A stretch of DNA of 64,000 bases from Desulfuromonadales bacterium (lineage in GTDB: Bacteria; Desulfobacterota; Desulfuromonadia; Desulfuromonadales; Syntrophotaleaceae): contig JASKKK010000005.1 of NCBI GenBank assembly GCA_030154185.1, forward strand, positions 1-64,000, in the 5' to 3' direction. The notes under the pieces were generated by a model that did not search any database, was not told the DNA's origin, and saw only the letters and a program-made list of their open reading frames with translations. How positions within the stretch are numbered: position 1 is the first letter of the stretch; the number at the start of each line of letters is the position of its first letter. Shown piece after piece: positions 46,291 through 54,397 of this stretch. Made by a program: the position numbers and the translations under genes.

Positions 46291-47082
46291 ATGGCACAGG
46301 TTAGCATGAAACAGCTGCTCGAGGCCGGCGTCCACTTCGGCCATCAGACCAAGCGCTGGAACCCAAAAATGAAGCCCTATATTTTCGGGGCGCGCAACGG
46401 TATCTACATCGTCGATCTGCAGAAGACCGTTCGATACTTCAAGGCGGCTTATCAGTTTGTTCGTGAAACGGTTCAGAACGGCGAAAAGGTTTTGTTCGTC
46501 GGAACCAAGAAACAGGCGCAGGAAGCTATCCGTGAGGAGACCGAACGTGCTGGGCAGTTTTATGTCGACAGTCGGTGGCTCGGTGGCATGCTGACCAACT
46601 TCGCCACCATCAAGAAGAGTATCGAACGTCTCAAGAAAATCGAAGCCATGGCGCAGGATGGCACTTACGAACTGCTTACCAAAAAAGAAGCTCTCGGGCT
46701 GGAGCGCGAAAGAGAAAAACTCGAAAAAACTCTCGGCGGCATCAAGGGCATGAGCAAGCTGCCCGGCGCCGTGTTCGTGATTGATCCCAAGAAGGAAGCC
46801 ATCGCCGTCAAGGAAGCCCGTAAACTGGGTATCCCGGTCGTCGCCGTGGTCGATACCAACTGCGATCCGGACGACATCGATTACATCATTCCCGGCAACG
46901 ACGATGCCATCCGTGCCATTCGTCTGTTTGCCACAAAAATGGCCGATGCCTGCGTCGAAGGCGCCGAGGCACGCGAAGCTGCATTGAGGGCTGAAACCGA
47001 CAAAGCTGAGACCGAAAACAAGGACGAAGCCCCCGTTGAGGAAGCTGCTGGCGAAGCGGGCGAGAAGGCCGGCGAAGCATAG
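46291..47082 (+). CDS. rpsB: 30S ribosomal protein S2
   Basis: A 263-residue ribosomal protein: [20 protein letters not shown] start, [17 protein letters not shown], and [20 protein letters not shown]. The last 35 residues form an acidic, alanine-rich tail beyond the usual S2 end. AAAGGAG precedes the ATG. First gene of the rpsB-tsf-pyrH-frr cluster. Confidence 0.98.
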
Positions 47083-47105
47083 TCGTTTTTCGGTGTTTTG
47101 AATAC

Positions 47106-47141
47106 GCAAAAGGCGGTCCGGGAAACTGACCGCCTTTTTGC
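47106..47141 (+). terminator. Terminator or attenuator between rpsB and tsf
   Basis: GCAAAAGGCGGTC pairs with GACCGCCTTTTTGC around a 9-base loop. A strong hairpin here probably lowers tsf relative to rpsB. Confidence 0.8.
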
Positions 47142-47205
47142 TGACATATATCACGGAAGCGGTGACCAAGAACCCGCCTCCCAGCATAAACGAGGAGAGA
47201 TTGTC

Positions 47206-48117
47206 ATGAAAATCACTGCATCGATGGTTTCCGAACTGCGTACCAAAACCGGCGCAGGGATGATGGATTGTAAAAAAGCTCTTACCGAAGCCGGCGGAAA
47301 TATGGAAGAAGCTGTCGACCTGCTTCGTAAAAAAGGTCTTTCCGCCGCAGCCAAAAAAGCCGATCGCGCTGCTGCAGAAGGTCTCGTGGTCGGCCTTGCC
47401 GAGGGTGGCTGCGGAGTTCTGGTGGAAGTGAATGCCGAGACCGATTTCGTTGCCAAAAACGCCAATTTTCAGGAATTCACCAGCGGCGTGGCGAATGTTG
47501 TGCTCTCCTCCAAGCCCGCCGATCTCGAAGCTCTCAAGGCTCTTCCTTTTCCCGGAACCGGGCGTACCGTTGCCGAAGAGCAGACCCATCAGATAGCCAC
47601 TATCGGTGAAAATATCAATTTGCGGCGCTTTGTCTGTTTTGACAATGACCAGGGGGTCGTATCCTTCTATATTCACGGGGTCGGAAAAATCGGCGTTCTC
47701 GTGGAACTGGAAACCGCAAAGACTGATGATGAGCGTGTGTCCGCCCTGGCGCGCAACCTGGCCATGCATATAGCTGCCGCCAACCCCCCTTACCTGTGTC
47801 GCGACGATGTGCCCGCGGAAGTTGTGGAAAAAGAAAAAGACATCATGCGCACCAAGGCCATCGAAAGCGGCAAACCTGAAAAAATCGTTGAGAAAATCAT
47901 TGCCGGACAGATCAACAAATACTTCAGTGAAGTCTGCCTGCTTGAACAAGCTTACGTTATCGATCCCGACCACACCGTCGGCAAGGTAGTCGAGAACTTG
48001 GGCAAGGAGATAGGTGGCGATGTCAAACTGACTCGTTTCGCCCGCTATCAATTGGGTGAAGGTCTGGAAAAACGAGAAGACGACTTTGCGGCCGAGGTCG
48101 CTTCCATGACCAAGTAA
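47206..48117 (+). CDS. tsf: Translation elongation factor Ts
   Basis: Exchanges nucleotide on EF-Tu. The 303 residues begin with the UBA-like domain (VSELRTKTGAGMMDCKKALT), then the ETDFVAKNANFQEF core motif and two dimerisation subdomains, of full bacterial length. GAGGAGAG precedes ATG 47206. The pyrH start codon directly follows its stop. Confidence 0.98.
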   Translation: MKITASMVSELRTKTGAGMMDCKKALTEAGGNMEEAVDLLRKKGLSAAAKKADRAAAEGLVVGLAEGGCGVLVEVNAETDFVAKNANFQEFTSGVANVVLSSKPADLEALKALPFPGTGRTVAEEQTHQIATIGENINLRRFVCFDNDQGVVSFYIHGVGKIGVLVELETAKTDDERVSALARNLAMHIAAANPPYLCRDDVPAEVVEKEKDIMRTKAIESGKPEKIVEKIIAGQINKYFSEVCLLEQAYVIDPDHTVGKVVENLGKEIGGDVKLTRFARYQLGEGLEKREDDFAAEVASMTK

Positions 48118-48855
<738 letters not shown>

Positions 48856-48860
48856 ATTCC

Positions 48861-49418
48861 ATGTATAACGATGTCGTCAAGAAAGCTCGCAACGGAATGG
48901 ATAAGGCTGTAGACGCCTTGAAAAAGGACATGACCAAAGTACGTACCGGGAGGGCGTCCACCTCTCTTCTGGATGATGTGATGGTCGATTACTACGGCAC
49001 TCCTACGCCACTGAATCAGGTCGGCACCCTGACCGTTCCTGAATCTCGACTGATAACCATTCAACCTTGGGAAAAGAAACTTCTGCCGGATATTGAAAAG
49101 GCTATTTTCAAGGCCGATCTTGGGCTTACCCCGACGTCCGACGGGCAGCTCATCCGTATTGCCATTCCTCCCATGACCGAGGAACGCCGCAAGGAAATGG
49201 GCAAAGTGGTGCGGAAGATGGGAGAGGAGGCGAAGGTCAGTGTGCGCGGCGCTCGGCGCGACGCCAACGAGAGCTTGAAAAAACTGGAAAAAAACAAGGA
49301 AATCAGTGAGGATGAACAGAAGCGTGGCGAAAAGGAAATCCAGGATCTGACCGATTCCTTTGTGGCCAAAATTGATGAGCTTGTTGCCGGTAAAGAAAAG
49401 GAAATCATGGAAATCTGA
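48861..49418 (+). CDS. frr: Ribosome recycling factor
   Basis: A 185-residue two-domain tRNA mimic that splits post-termination ribosomes with EF-G. Motifs: [62 protein letters not shown] precedes the ATG. A terminator follows. Confidence 0.97.
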
Positions 49419-49632: not shown

Positions 49633-50361
49633 ATGCGTATACCCCGACATCTCGCCATTATCATGGATGGTAACGGGCGTTGGGCCGAACAACGTGGCTT
49701 ACCCCGGATTCTCGGCCATCGTCATGGCGTTGAGACAGCCAAAACCATCATTGAAGAGTGCCGCCGGATGGGGGTGGCCTATCTCACCCTTTATGCTTTC
49801 AGCTCCGAAAACTGGGGTCGACCCAACGAAGAGGTCGATTCCCTGATGGCCTTGCTCAACACTTTCCTTGACAAAGAATTACAGACGCTTCTCACTCATC
49901 GAATCCGTCTCAACGTTATCGGAGCTATAGACCGTCTCCCTGCGCAGGTACGTGACACGCTGTTTCGTACCATGGAACGCACAGCCCAAAACCGGGATAT
50001 GGTTTTGACCCTTGCTCTCTCCTACGGGGCCCGCGATGAAATACTGGGCGCCGTTCGAACTCTCGTCGAAGAGGTCCAGAGCGGGCAACTCAAGCCCGAT
50101 GCCATCGATGAGCAGTGCTTTTCCCGCGCCCTCCAGACATCCGGTATGCCCGATCCGGACTTTCTCATTCGTACCAGCGGCGAAATACGCATCAGCAACT
50201 TTCTGCTGTGGCAGCTGGCTTATGCCGAAATCTATTTCACGCCGGTCTTATGGCCCGATTTCAGTCCCGCTCACCTGCACGACGCCTTTGTCGAATTCGA
50301 GCGTAGGGAACGTCGCTACGGTCTGACCGCTGAGCAATTACCCGATAAGTGTGATGACTGA
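49633..50361 (+). CDS. uppS: Undecaprenyl diphosphate synthase (isoprenyl transferase)
   Basis: A 242-residue cis-prenyltransferase that makes the C55 carrier for peptidoglycan and O-antigen. HLAIIMDGNGRWAEQRG with catalytic Asp12, YLTLYAFSSENWGRP, and RTSGEIRISNFLLWQLAYAE are the family regions. ATG 49633 is chosen; a GTG at 49612 is in frame. Its stop codon overlaps the AAGGAGG of the next gene. Confidence 0.96.
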   Translation: MRIPRHLAIIMDGNGRWAEQRGLPRILGHRHGVETAKTIIEECRRMGVAYLTLYAFSSENWGRPNEEVDSLMALLNTFLDKELQTLLTHRIRLNVIGAIDRLPAQVRDTLFRTMERTAQNRDMVLTLALSYGARDEILGAVRTLVEEVQSGQLKPDAIDEQCFSRALQTSGMPDPDFLIRTSGEIRISNFLLWQLAYAEIYFTPVLWPDFSPAHLHDAFVEFERRERRYGLTAEQLPDKCDD

Positions 50362-50372
50362 AGGAGGAAGAT

Positions 50373-51170
50373 ATTAAAACGCGAATCCTGACAGCATGTA
50401 TTGTGCTGCCTCTGCTTATAGCTTTTATTTTGAAGGCTCCCGCCTGGGGGTTTTTCTGTATGGTGGCCGGCATTGCCGGCTGGGCTCTCTGCGAATATTA
50501 CGCCATGGTTCTGCCTGGACGGCGATATGTCGAAAGATGGCTGGCGATTATCACCGGCGTTTCGCTGATGATTCCGCTAGTATTTGAGCAGTATGAGGTG
50601 TTTGTCGGGCTAATCACATTCATTGTTTTCATTTTTGCATGCCTGTTTCTGTTGCATCATGGCACCATGGAGAGAGCGGCTGGGGACCTCGCTCTGATGG
50701 TGTTCGGTTTTTTTTATTTAAGCATACCCCTTGCGCACATGGTCATGCTTCGCTATCTGGAGCATGGCACGCGCTGGATTCTGCTGGTGCTGTTCATGGT
50801 CATGGTCAATGATACCAGCGCATATTTTACCGGGACTTTTCTGGGACGGCATAAGTTGTATCCGAGCGTGAGTCCCAAAAAAAGTGTCGAAGGTGCCGTT
50901 GGCGGCCTGGCCGGCAGTCTTTGTGCCGCCGCCGTAGCGCATTGGACTTTTGTTCCCTGGACTGCCCTGTCGCATATCCTGCTCCTTGGGCTGGTGGCCG
51001 GAGTCGTTGCCGAACTCGGCGATCTGTTTGAATCTCTCCTGAAACGTTCTTTCGGCATAAAAGATTCCGGCGCACTGATTCCCGGGCACGGGGGGATACT
51101 CGATCGCCTTGACAGTCTGATATTCGTTTTTCCGTTAACATACTATTTCGCCCTGGCATTTCAGGGATAG
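50373..51170 (+). CDS. cdsA: Phosphatidate cytidylyltransferase
   Basis: Makes CDP-diacylglycerol for all phospholipids. About 265 residues with many membrane helices and the C-terminal signature ([20 protein letters not shown], then GILDRLDS). The N-terminus [18 protein letters not shown] is the usual CdsA start, but it is preceded by no ATG, GTG or TTG: the frame upstream reads stop, CTG, AAG, GAG, GAA, GAT, ATT. AAGGAGG (50361-50367) lies five bases before ATT 50373, so AUU initiation is the best reading. A GTG at 50403 lacks a ribosome site and would drop the first ten residues. Confidence 0.92.
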
Positions 51171-51178
51171 AGGGGATT

Positions 51179-52363
51179 ATGGCTTCCGCAAAAAGACTCG
51201 GCATCCTCGGTTCCACCGGCTCCATCGGAGTCAGCACCCTGGACATTGTGGCTGCATTTCCGGACCAGTTCGAAGTGGTGACCTTGACGGCGGGAAACAA
51301 TCTCGTTCGTCTGGAAGAGCAGATACGACGTTTTCGGCCCCAAATGGTCGCAGTGCTTTCTGAAGATGGAGCAAAACAGCTGAAACAACGGCTTGGCGAC
51401 GAGGCACCGCAGATTCTGTCCGGTATCGAGGGGTTGGTGGCATGCGCCACCCACGCGGGCATCGATATGGTGGTTTCCGCCATTGTCGGTGCTGCAGGAC
51501 TGGTTCCTACCATGTCTGCCATCGAGTCGGGCAAGGATATCGCTTTGGCCAACAAGGAAACATTGGTGACGGCAGGTTCGCTGATAACCGAAGCCGTGGC
51601 ACGACATGGCGTACGGCTGTTTCCCGTGGATAGCGAACATTCCGCGATCTTTCAGTCTCTGGAAGGACATCGCATGGATGACGTTCGTCGGTTGATTCTG
51701 ACCGCTTCGGGAGGGCCGTTTCGCAATCGTCCGCTTGAGGAGATGGTCGATATAACACCGGCCGATGCTCTGGCGCACCCGAACTGGAGCATGGGACGCA
51801 AAATTTCCATCGATTCCGCCACGATGATGAACAAGGGGCTGGAAGTCATCGAAGCGCGTTGGCTGTTCGATGTTCCGGCGGATCGCATCGCAGTTCATAT
51901 CCATCCCCAGAGTATCGTTCATTCCCTGGTCGAATACATCGATGGCGCCGTTATCGCCCAACTTGGCATTCCCGATATGAAAACGCCTATTGCATATGCC
52001 TTGTCCCATCCCAACCGATTGCCCCTCGATCTGCCCGCATTGGACCTTTGCAGTTTGCGCAATCTTACTTTCGACGATCCCGACCTCGAGCGTTTTCCCT
52101 GTCTGGGGCTTGCCTATGATGCTCTGGCCATGGACGGCACTGCGCCTGCCGTGCTTAATGCCGCCAATGAAGTGGCGGTCGACGCTTTTCTCAATGAAGA
52201 GATTGCCTTTCTCGACATTGCGCGGATCATTGGTGCGACCCTCAAGGGGCTGAAAGTGAAGCCTCTCGAGCATATCGATGATGTTCTGCGGGCCGATCTA
52301 TGGGGTCGGCGGGAGGCTCGTCGCCTCATCGACAGTCAGGCTGAAGGAGGACAGGCATGCTGA
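51179..52363 (+). CDS. dxr: 1-deoxy-D-xylulose-5-phosphate reductoisomerase
   Basis: The committed step of the MEP isoprenoid pathway, converting DXP to MEP with NADPH. The 394 residues show [39 protein letters not shown] and TASGGPFRN, and [20 protein letters not shown]. It overlaps rseP by seven bases. Products feed uppS just upstream. Confidence 0.98.
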
Positions 52364-53685
52364 AAATCGTCGGCGGTATTCTCATGCTCGGGGTTCTGGT
52401 TTTCGTCCACGAGCTTGGACACTTTCTGATTGCCAAATGGTGCCGGGTCAAGGTGCTGAAATTTTCCCTCGGCTTCGGACCCAGACTTTTCTCGCGTACC
52501 TGGGGAGAGACGGAGTACCAGGTCTGCATTATACCTTTGGGAGGGTATGTGCAGATGCTTGGAGAAGGAGGGAACGAAGAGGGTCAGCCCCTTACGGAAG
52601 AAGACAAACAAAGATCGTTCGCCGAAAAGCCGGTATTGCAACGGCTTGCCATTGTTGCGGCCGGTCCGGCCATGAATCTGTTGCTGCCGTTTACGCTTTT
52701 GCCCCTGGCTTTTTTTATCGGCATGGATCAGCCCGCCTTTCTCGATCGGCCTGCCTGTGTCGGGTATGTTGTCAGCGAATCGCCCGCCGCACGTGCGGGT
52801 TTCGAGGTGGGGGACTGCATCAAGAGCATTTCTGGGCATCCGGCCGATACCTGGACTGAGGCTGAAAAAAACCTTCTTTCCGTTGCCGGTAAGAGAGTGT
52901 CGTTGCTGGTTGAGCGCGAAAAGGGGCCCGTCGACCTGCAGCTGCCTGCGGACGCCACCGCCGTGGAGGGGTTGCAGGGCGTAGGGCTTTTACCGCGGCA
53001 GGCTGCCGTTGTCGGATTTCTTCAGGACAACATGCCTGCGAGGAAGGCCGGGATGCAGCTGAACGATCGTATCGTTGCCATCGACGGTTCACCGGTGCGG
53101 TCCTGGTACGATATCCCCGCCCTGGTGGAGGCGAGCGAAGGCGCCGCCATGACCGTCGTCGTTGAACGCAGCGGAAGCTTTTTGAATCTGCAGCTCGATC
53201 CAAAGTTTATCGGCGAGAAAGAGTCCGGTCGATACATGCTTGGTATCGGACCGCAAGTGGAAACGGTTTTCAAGCGTTTCAGTCTCGGCGATGCTTTCCG
53301 TGAAGGGGTCGGACGCAGCGTGGAACTTGTCGACATGACGCTTCTGTTTTTACGCAAACTGTTTGCCGGACACATTTCCGCCAAGAACATCGGCGGTCCC
53401 ATCATGGTGGTGCAGATGGCGGGCTCTGTCGCAGAAGAGGTCGATCTGGCCAAGATTCTTTCCATGCTGGCATTTTTGAGCATTCAATTGGGGATCCTCA
53501 ATCTGCTTCCGGTACCCATCCTCGATGGAGGACACCTGCTGTTCGGAGCCGTTGAGCTGGTGCGCGGCAAGCCTCTGTCGGAGCAGGCACGGGAGATCGC
53601 CCAACAGGTCGGCCTGGTGTTTATTATTCTGCTGATGGCATGGGCTTTTTATAATGACATTATGCGTCTGACCTTCGGGGGGTAG
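52357..53685 (+). CDS. rseP: RIP site-2 metalloprotease RseP
   Basis: A 442-residue inner-membrane zinc protease. The zinc site is HELGH at residues 18-22 in the first helix; two PDZ domains lie at about 110-290; the third ligand region is [15 protein letters not shown]. It cleaves anti-sigma factors or leftover signal peptides in the membrane. The gene order dxr-rseP is widely conserved. Confidence 0.96.
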
Positions 53686-53686
53686 A

Positions 53687-54397
53687 ATGGAGGAGCTGGC
53701 AGTAACCGTCGATACTTCGACTCCGGCCGGTAGCGTGGCTCTCAATCGAGGGGAAGACCTGCTCGGGGAGGTGGTGTTGCACCTGCGGGGCACGCATACG
53801 GATCGCATTCTCAGTTCCCTGAACTGGTTGCTCACCGAGGCATGTGTAAAACCGTCTGAAGTCGATGTGTTCGGTGTCGTGATCGGGCCGGGTAGCTTCA
53901 CCGGCTTGCGGGTCGGGGTCGCTACCGTCAAAGGGCTTGCCTTTGCCTGTGACACCCCCGTTGTCGGGGTGTCATCTCTGGAGACCCTCGCCATGGGGCG
54001 CCCTGCCTCCGCTTATCCGGTTTGCACCATGATCGATGCCCGAAAACACGAAGTGTATGGCGCGGTGTACGACTGTCGGCAAGAAGTCCCCATAAACCAG
54101 GTTCAAGAACAGGTTGTACCGCCGAGGGTCATGTTGGAACAGTTGCAGGGAGAACATCTGTTTGTTGGCAGCGGGGCTGTTTTGTATCGTGATCTTATTC
54201 TGGAACGGATGGGTGACAAGGCACATTTCGTGCCCAGGGCGGTGAATCTTCCCAGGGCTTCGTCTGCTGCAGCGCTGGTTTTGGCCCGCTATCGTGTCGG
54301 TAAGACATGCACCGCCCGGGAAATCGCGCCACGTTACATCCGGGCTTCAGAAGCGGAAATCATGCGTGCCGCCAAGCAGGCCTCCAAGACTACCTGA
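53687..54397 (+). CDS. tsaB: tRNA threonylcarbamoyladenosine synthesis protein TsaB
   Basis: A 236-residue ASKHA-fold protein that activates TsaD for t6A37 modification of tRNA. VTVDTSTPAGSVALNRGEDL start, GPGSFTGLRVGVATVKGLAF and TMIDARKHEVYGAVYD are family motifs. It begins two bases after rseP. tsaD and tsaE are not in the window. Confidence 0.94.
   Translation: MEELAVTVDTSTPAGSVALNRGEDLLGEVVLHLRGTHTDRILSSLNWLLTEACVKPSEVDVFGVVIGPGSFTGLRVGVATVKGLAFACDTPVVGVSSLETLAMGRPASAYPVCTMIDARKHEVYGAVYDCRQEVPINQVQEQVVPPRVMLEQLQGEHLFVGSGAVLYRDLILERMGDKAHFVPRAVNLPRASSAAALVLARYRVGKTCTAREIAPRYIRASEAEIMRAAKQASKTT

Follow-up and report, generated by a model that had tools for sequence, protein, structure and literature searches.

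The cdsA gene of the window (the whole stretch of 64,000 nucleotides analyzed here) starts with an ATT codon behind a strong Shine-Dalgarno (SD) sequence, and this type of start is conserved across the class to which the genome belongs. Of 157 distinct sequences from the class, 155 have ATT, ATC or ATA (AUH codons) at the start position, two have GTG and none has ATG, and cdsA is nearly unique among the compared genes in having such a start. We consider it very probable that this is a real but weak initiation site, rescued by its SD and located behind uppS, which would have been selected to keep CdsA synthesis low.

In the window, cdsA (50373..51170, forward strand, as are the other genes of its row) encodes a phosphatidate cytidylyltransferase (CDP-diacylglycerol synthase) of 265 aa. 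The gene row has the order rpsB-tsf-pyrH-frr-uppS-cdsA-dxr-rseP-tsaB-like. Its first four genes span 46294..49418 and are followed by uppS (undecaprenyl diphosphate synthase; PF01255, TIGR00055; 49633..50361, stop TGA 50359-50361), for which we adopted the start ATG 49633 (MRIPRHLAIIMDG), the mechanical open reading frame running from GTG 49612. Downstream of cdsA are dxr, with an ATG start (51179..52363), which served as a control, and then the rseP-type M50 protease and TsaB-like genes (52357..54397). The uppS-cdsA junction reads GTG TGA TGA CTG AAG GAG GAA GAT ATT(50373) AAA ACG CGA ATC CTG. A TGA (50355..50357), five codons 5' of the ATT, closes the cdsA frame upstream, and the SD AAGGAGG (50361..50367) shares the last base of the uppS stop and is separated by the 5-nt spacer AAGAT from the start codon (50373..50375), which was assigned from the window sequence and from relatives. 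Since the uppS stop ends 11 nt 5' of the ATT, stop and start do not overlap here. No ATG, GTG or TTG lies in the cdsA frame of the window between the TGA at 50355 and the ATT, and the first canonical codon after the latter is GTG 50403 (50403..50405).

The protein started at the ATT belongs to the CdsA family, Pfam CTP_transf_1 (PF01148) covering its residues 2-261 with E=1.9e-64. Its N-terminus aligns from residue 1 with the solved Thermotoga maritima CdsA (4Q2E/4Q2G, profile positions 1-258), and the 27-residue family motif can be read directly in the window translation. The fold of the RNA around the start (50335-50410) was not better than those of shuffled sequences (z -0.61). The preliminary description had proposed the AUU start, with AAGGAGG five bases before ATT 50373 and no ATG, GTG or TTG from the in-frame stop at 50355 onward. 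Our reading of the window agrees on both details, and the start itself is confirmed by the codon, its SD, the full CdsA frame downstream and the class sequences.

The class sample comprised Desulfuromonadales- and Geobacterales-type genomes (Geobacter, Pelobacter, Desulfuromonas and relatives). The relatives read first, from the genus, family and order, all carried ATT, ATC or ATA at the aligned position; 100 further starts were taken from a class-wide search, cdsA being found in 156/156 genomes. The comparison of start codons in close relatives that had been called for initially thus gave the same answer throughout the class. Desulfuromonadales-type sequences start with ATT (74), ATC (18), ATA (1) or GTG (2), and Geobacterales-type sequences with ATC (38), ATT (15) or ATA (9). 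Named examples are Geomonas oryzae, Geobacter sp. AOG1 and Geomesophilobacter sediminis (all ATC), Trichlorobacter thiogenes (ATA) and Geothermobacter hydrogeniphilus (ATT). Both GTG cases (L213, L214) lack the Ile codon; in a third sequence (L212), tallied as ATC, the situation is ambiguous because a GTG stands immediately 5' of the ATC. In a maximum-likelihood phylogeny of 68 CdsA protein sequences, built with the start residue omitted, the third base of the start codon changed at least 14 times among T, C and A, and never to G. In addition, ATT accounts for 74/93 of the AUH starts of the Desulfuromonadales type versus 41% inside the gene, and still for 34/52 when stop-start overlaps are excluded (p=0.0003, a guide only, the sequences being related). 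This excess sets the codon apart from the usual Ile codons of the gene. Two isolated observations concern the gene itself: the cdsA match at G043:C4:118862-119641 (start in L205) contains one in-frame TAG, which could be a mutation, a recoding or a sequence error, and one congener possesses an additional CdsA-like gene that is only distantly related (30% identity; G004:C1:3240475-3241257).

That the AUH codon is the true start of cdsA is, in our view, close to certain from the alignments. In 119 of the 155 class sequences, the 20 upstream codons (or those back to the nearest stop, where one intervenes) include no in-frame ATG, GTG or TTG; 22 genomes have an in-frame stop at most four codons 5' of the AUH codon. 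An SD of at least 4 nt (range 4-8 nt, mostly 5-6 nt, with a spacing of 6-7 nt) precedes it in 149/155 sequences, and the six without an exact match carry AGGGG or GGGGG. This SD is stronger than that of uppS or dxr in the same genomes, where these two genes often have none. Within the first 40 cdsA codons there is no conserved canonical codon, the maximum being 14/68 in any column. The site displays three sequence features of genes with a conserved AUH start such as infC: no canonical codon in frame, a strong and well-spaced SD, and a conserved codon with a variable third base.

The neighboring genes start conventionally in the same loci: uppS with ATG in 84/84 and dxr with ATG, GTG or TTG in all 83 found. 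We also compared two congeners (G003 and G004, 800 kb each, 501 non-overlapping reciprocal-best ortholog pairs) and recovered only two genes with a conserved, strongly SD-preceded non-canonical start and no canonical codon aligned as an alternative, infC (ATA/ATA, preceded by TTAGGAGGTGCTACC) and cdsA (ATT/ATC); the other 19 filtered pairs were judged from their context to reflect a nearby canonical codon, an internal match or a shadow frame. In the 30 relatives read (L165-L194, the genome of the window included), infC has the type of start that IF3 autoregulates, which is ATC in L168 and L176 and ATA in the others, mostly preceded by TTAGGAGGTG; the genome of the window has ATA (L173, C98:44114-44620). 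The arrangement GGAGGTGNNACC-ATA, or a similar one, at infC is thus comparable to the AUH start of cdsA in the same genomes.

Outside the class, most other Desulfobacterota start cdsA with ATG (often ATG-CAY) or with TTG or GTG. In the G147 lineage, which belongs to another class of the phylum (L375-L403), about 18 of 29 sequences (L378, L383-L385, L387-L389, L391-L401) have a CTG behind a GGAGG-like SD, as a rule with no canonical codon nearby. The family of G147 itself shows a mixture of ATG, GTG, TTG and CTG at cdsA, and two members of the lineage (L382 and L386) have ATT; here too, the controls were conventional, uppS starting always with ATG and dxr nearly always with a canonical codon. 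For the cdsA gene of Escherichia coli K-12, the annotated start is a TTG preceded by GGGGG (L404:178-180), and the Paenibacillus gene also starts with TTG. These are the same enzyme with codons that IF3 accepts, as is the case for the ATG-CAY of most other Desulfobacterota, and not AUH; however, TTG is itself a weak start, so that the E. coli gene already indicates that weak cdsA starts are not restricted to the class. The codon patterns, which are not a formal reconstruction, suggest that weak starts of cdsA probably arose repeatedly.

According to the mechanism that we favor, initiator fMet-tRNA would read the AUU at 50373, assisted by the strong SD, and ribosomes finishing uppS next door would probably feed initiation at cdsA, a coupling that we infer. 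With AUU, AUC or AUA, the third base is expected to be a poor match for the CAU anticodon, which would make initiation weak and open to rejection by IF3, a factor that favors third-base pairs of the Watson-Crick or G-U type and excludes anything weaker (PMC10158994). In Staphylococcus aureus, AUU and AUA starts give about 10% of the output of AUG and are supported by extended SDs (PMC13009471), and the strong SD of cdsA is what would be expected from this work if a weak start needs rescue. An excess of IF3 also reduces re-initiation, an effect that the presence of an SD attenuates (PMC2268962). A reduced yield of CdsA can thus be predicted with good confidence. Selection would hold the codon off AUG throughout the class, most likely to obtain little CdsA behind rpsB-tsf-pyrH-frr-uppS. 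As a counterpoint to selection for a low level, two lineages have moved to GTG and persist. Furthermore, CdsA overproduction is not known to be strongly toxic in E. coli, which makes low CdsA a presumed rather than a demonstrated necessity.

A tentative extension of this weak-start reading, already raised in the preliminary description and regarded by us as possible but distinctly less probable than a simple low setting, is that the start responds to IF3. CdsA would then rise when little free IF3 is available per ribosome, and phospholipid synthesis would track the translation state, in parallel with the autoregulation of infC. Several observations are consistent with such control: infC retains its AUA or AUC start in the same genomes, which makes a functional IF3 loop probable there; over the 800 kb compared, no conserved start of this kind was seen beyond those of infC and cdsA; IF3 discriminates weak third-base pairs (PMC10158994) and represses starts other than AUG, GUG and UUG, such as the GUC of Streptomyces sigR (PMC5472188); and CUG is used independently at cdsA in another lineage. 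However, cdsA encodes no initiation factor, unlike infC, and there is no self-evident feedback loop, so that control by IF3 is only putative for this gene. The autoregulation of IF3 itself tends to keep its level steady, the two reversions to GTG count against a regulated start, and a fixed low rate and a regulated rate are inseparable from sequence alone. A broader version, to which we give slightly less credit still, would make cdsA and infC the standing IF3-gated genes of the class: the level of IF3 or of free ribosomes would set the synthesis of CDP-diacylglycerol and couple membrane growth to translation capacity, and AUH in the class and CUG in another lineage of the phylum would be parallel answers to one need.

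Another explanation, which appears unlikely as a general cause, invokes the junction with uppS: the start would be AUU because its last base opens the uppS stop, which AUG would destroy. Of the 155 genomes, 45 indeed show the two genes overlapping as AU[UAA]A, all with ATT (40 of the Desulfuromonadales type and 5 of the Geobacterales type; for instance AT[TAA]A in L011, L012, L013, L014, L016, L028 and L029), and three others show them overlapping as A[UAA]A, with an ATA start (for instance A[TAA]A in L027). AT[TAA]A can be seen as a non-ATG analog of the ATGA overlap. In these genomes, the geometry forbids AUG without loss of the uppS stop and is a sufficient local reason for ATT, and it accounts for part of the excess of ATT over internal Ile usage. 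In most genomes without overlap, the uppS stop lies within about 20 nt of the cdsA start, on either side (distances were obtained heuristically for short loci, the uppS frame being identified only for the 68 longer ones). However, in about 107 other genomes, including that of the window, the codon is free of any overlap and varies between ATT, ATC and ATA, yet it is never ATG; the overlap is thus not the general cause. It may represent the origin of the AUH state or contribute to its maintenance, without being its full cause.

It is very improbable that cdsA translation begins at GTG 50403 or CTG 50358, or that it results from readthrough or frameshifting out of uppS, with the Ile codon as an ordinary residue. 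In favor of such a reading, the cdsA frame of the window reaches its first canonical codon at GTG 50403, a canonical codon lies upstream together with an SD-like 4-mer in eight of the 155 class sequences, and the GTG directly before the ATC in L212 could be counted in the same sense. Against this, GTG 50403 has no SD, its residue is not conserved, and a start there would deprive the protein of the conserved KTRILTACI and of some of its first hydrophobic segment. As for CTG 50358, it would place the SD inside its own frame and is absent from the other families. The 22 genomes with a stop at most four codons upstream leave no room for such a start or for a UppS-CdsA fusion by frameshift. Finally, L213 and L214 regained GTG and lost the Ile codon, as expected had the latter been the start. 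A sequencing or assembly error can be dismissed almost entirely, since the AUH start, although seen here in a 2.9-Mb assembly of 118 contigs, recurs across the class in independent assemblies, in isolates and in genomes that form a single contig.

Start codons outside AUG, GUG and UUG are extremely rare. Starts in general tend to evolve toward AUG: among 61,358 ancestral AUG starts, a single switch to AUU was detected, while GUG and UUG starts revert to AUG (PMC5622118). The view of the preliminary description that AUU-type starts are known mainly from infC is nevertheless outdated, given ccpN and cvfC1 (PMC13009471) and the GUC of sigR (PMC5472188). The infC gene of E. coli and other bacteria has in common with cdsA the AUH start, the strong SD, the wide conservation and the replacement of AUG by a weak codon. 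The ccpN (AUA) and cvfC1 (AUU) genes of Staphylococcus and Bacillus likewise combine conserved AUH codons with strong SDs, at about 10% of AUG expression, and the AUA of ccpN is conserved from S. aureus to B. subtilis (PMC13009471). These genes encode a regulator and a small protein, whereas cdsA encodes an essential membrane enzyme, stands in an operon-like row, and has its AUH start class-wide, with a parallel CUG elsewhere. The sigR gene resembles cdsA in that a non-canonical start within an operon sets a low level of one product (PMC5472188); it differs in its codon and in the nature of the gene, in that repression by IF3 was measured in vivo, and in the reason, which is the ratio to its partner RsrA. 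The open-access literature that we searched yielded no description of cdsA with an AUH start. The start is thus new for this gene, such elements being already known from infC, ccpN, cvfC1 and sigR, and its breadth is unusual.

An essential lipid gene with a class-wide AUH start, for which AUG is never seen, is among the widest cases of this kind. In practical terms, gene callers restricted to ATG, GTG and TTG would be expected to misplace the start of cdsA in genomes of the class. The AUH start of cdsA also offers a ready test of a tie between phospholipid synthesis and translation initiation, and it points to a simple low-output setting within a row of translation genes. Its near-universal presence suggests that evolution keeps the translation of cdsA weak in this class, possibly in connection with IF3.
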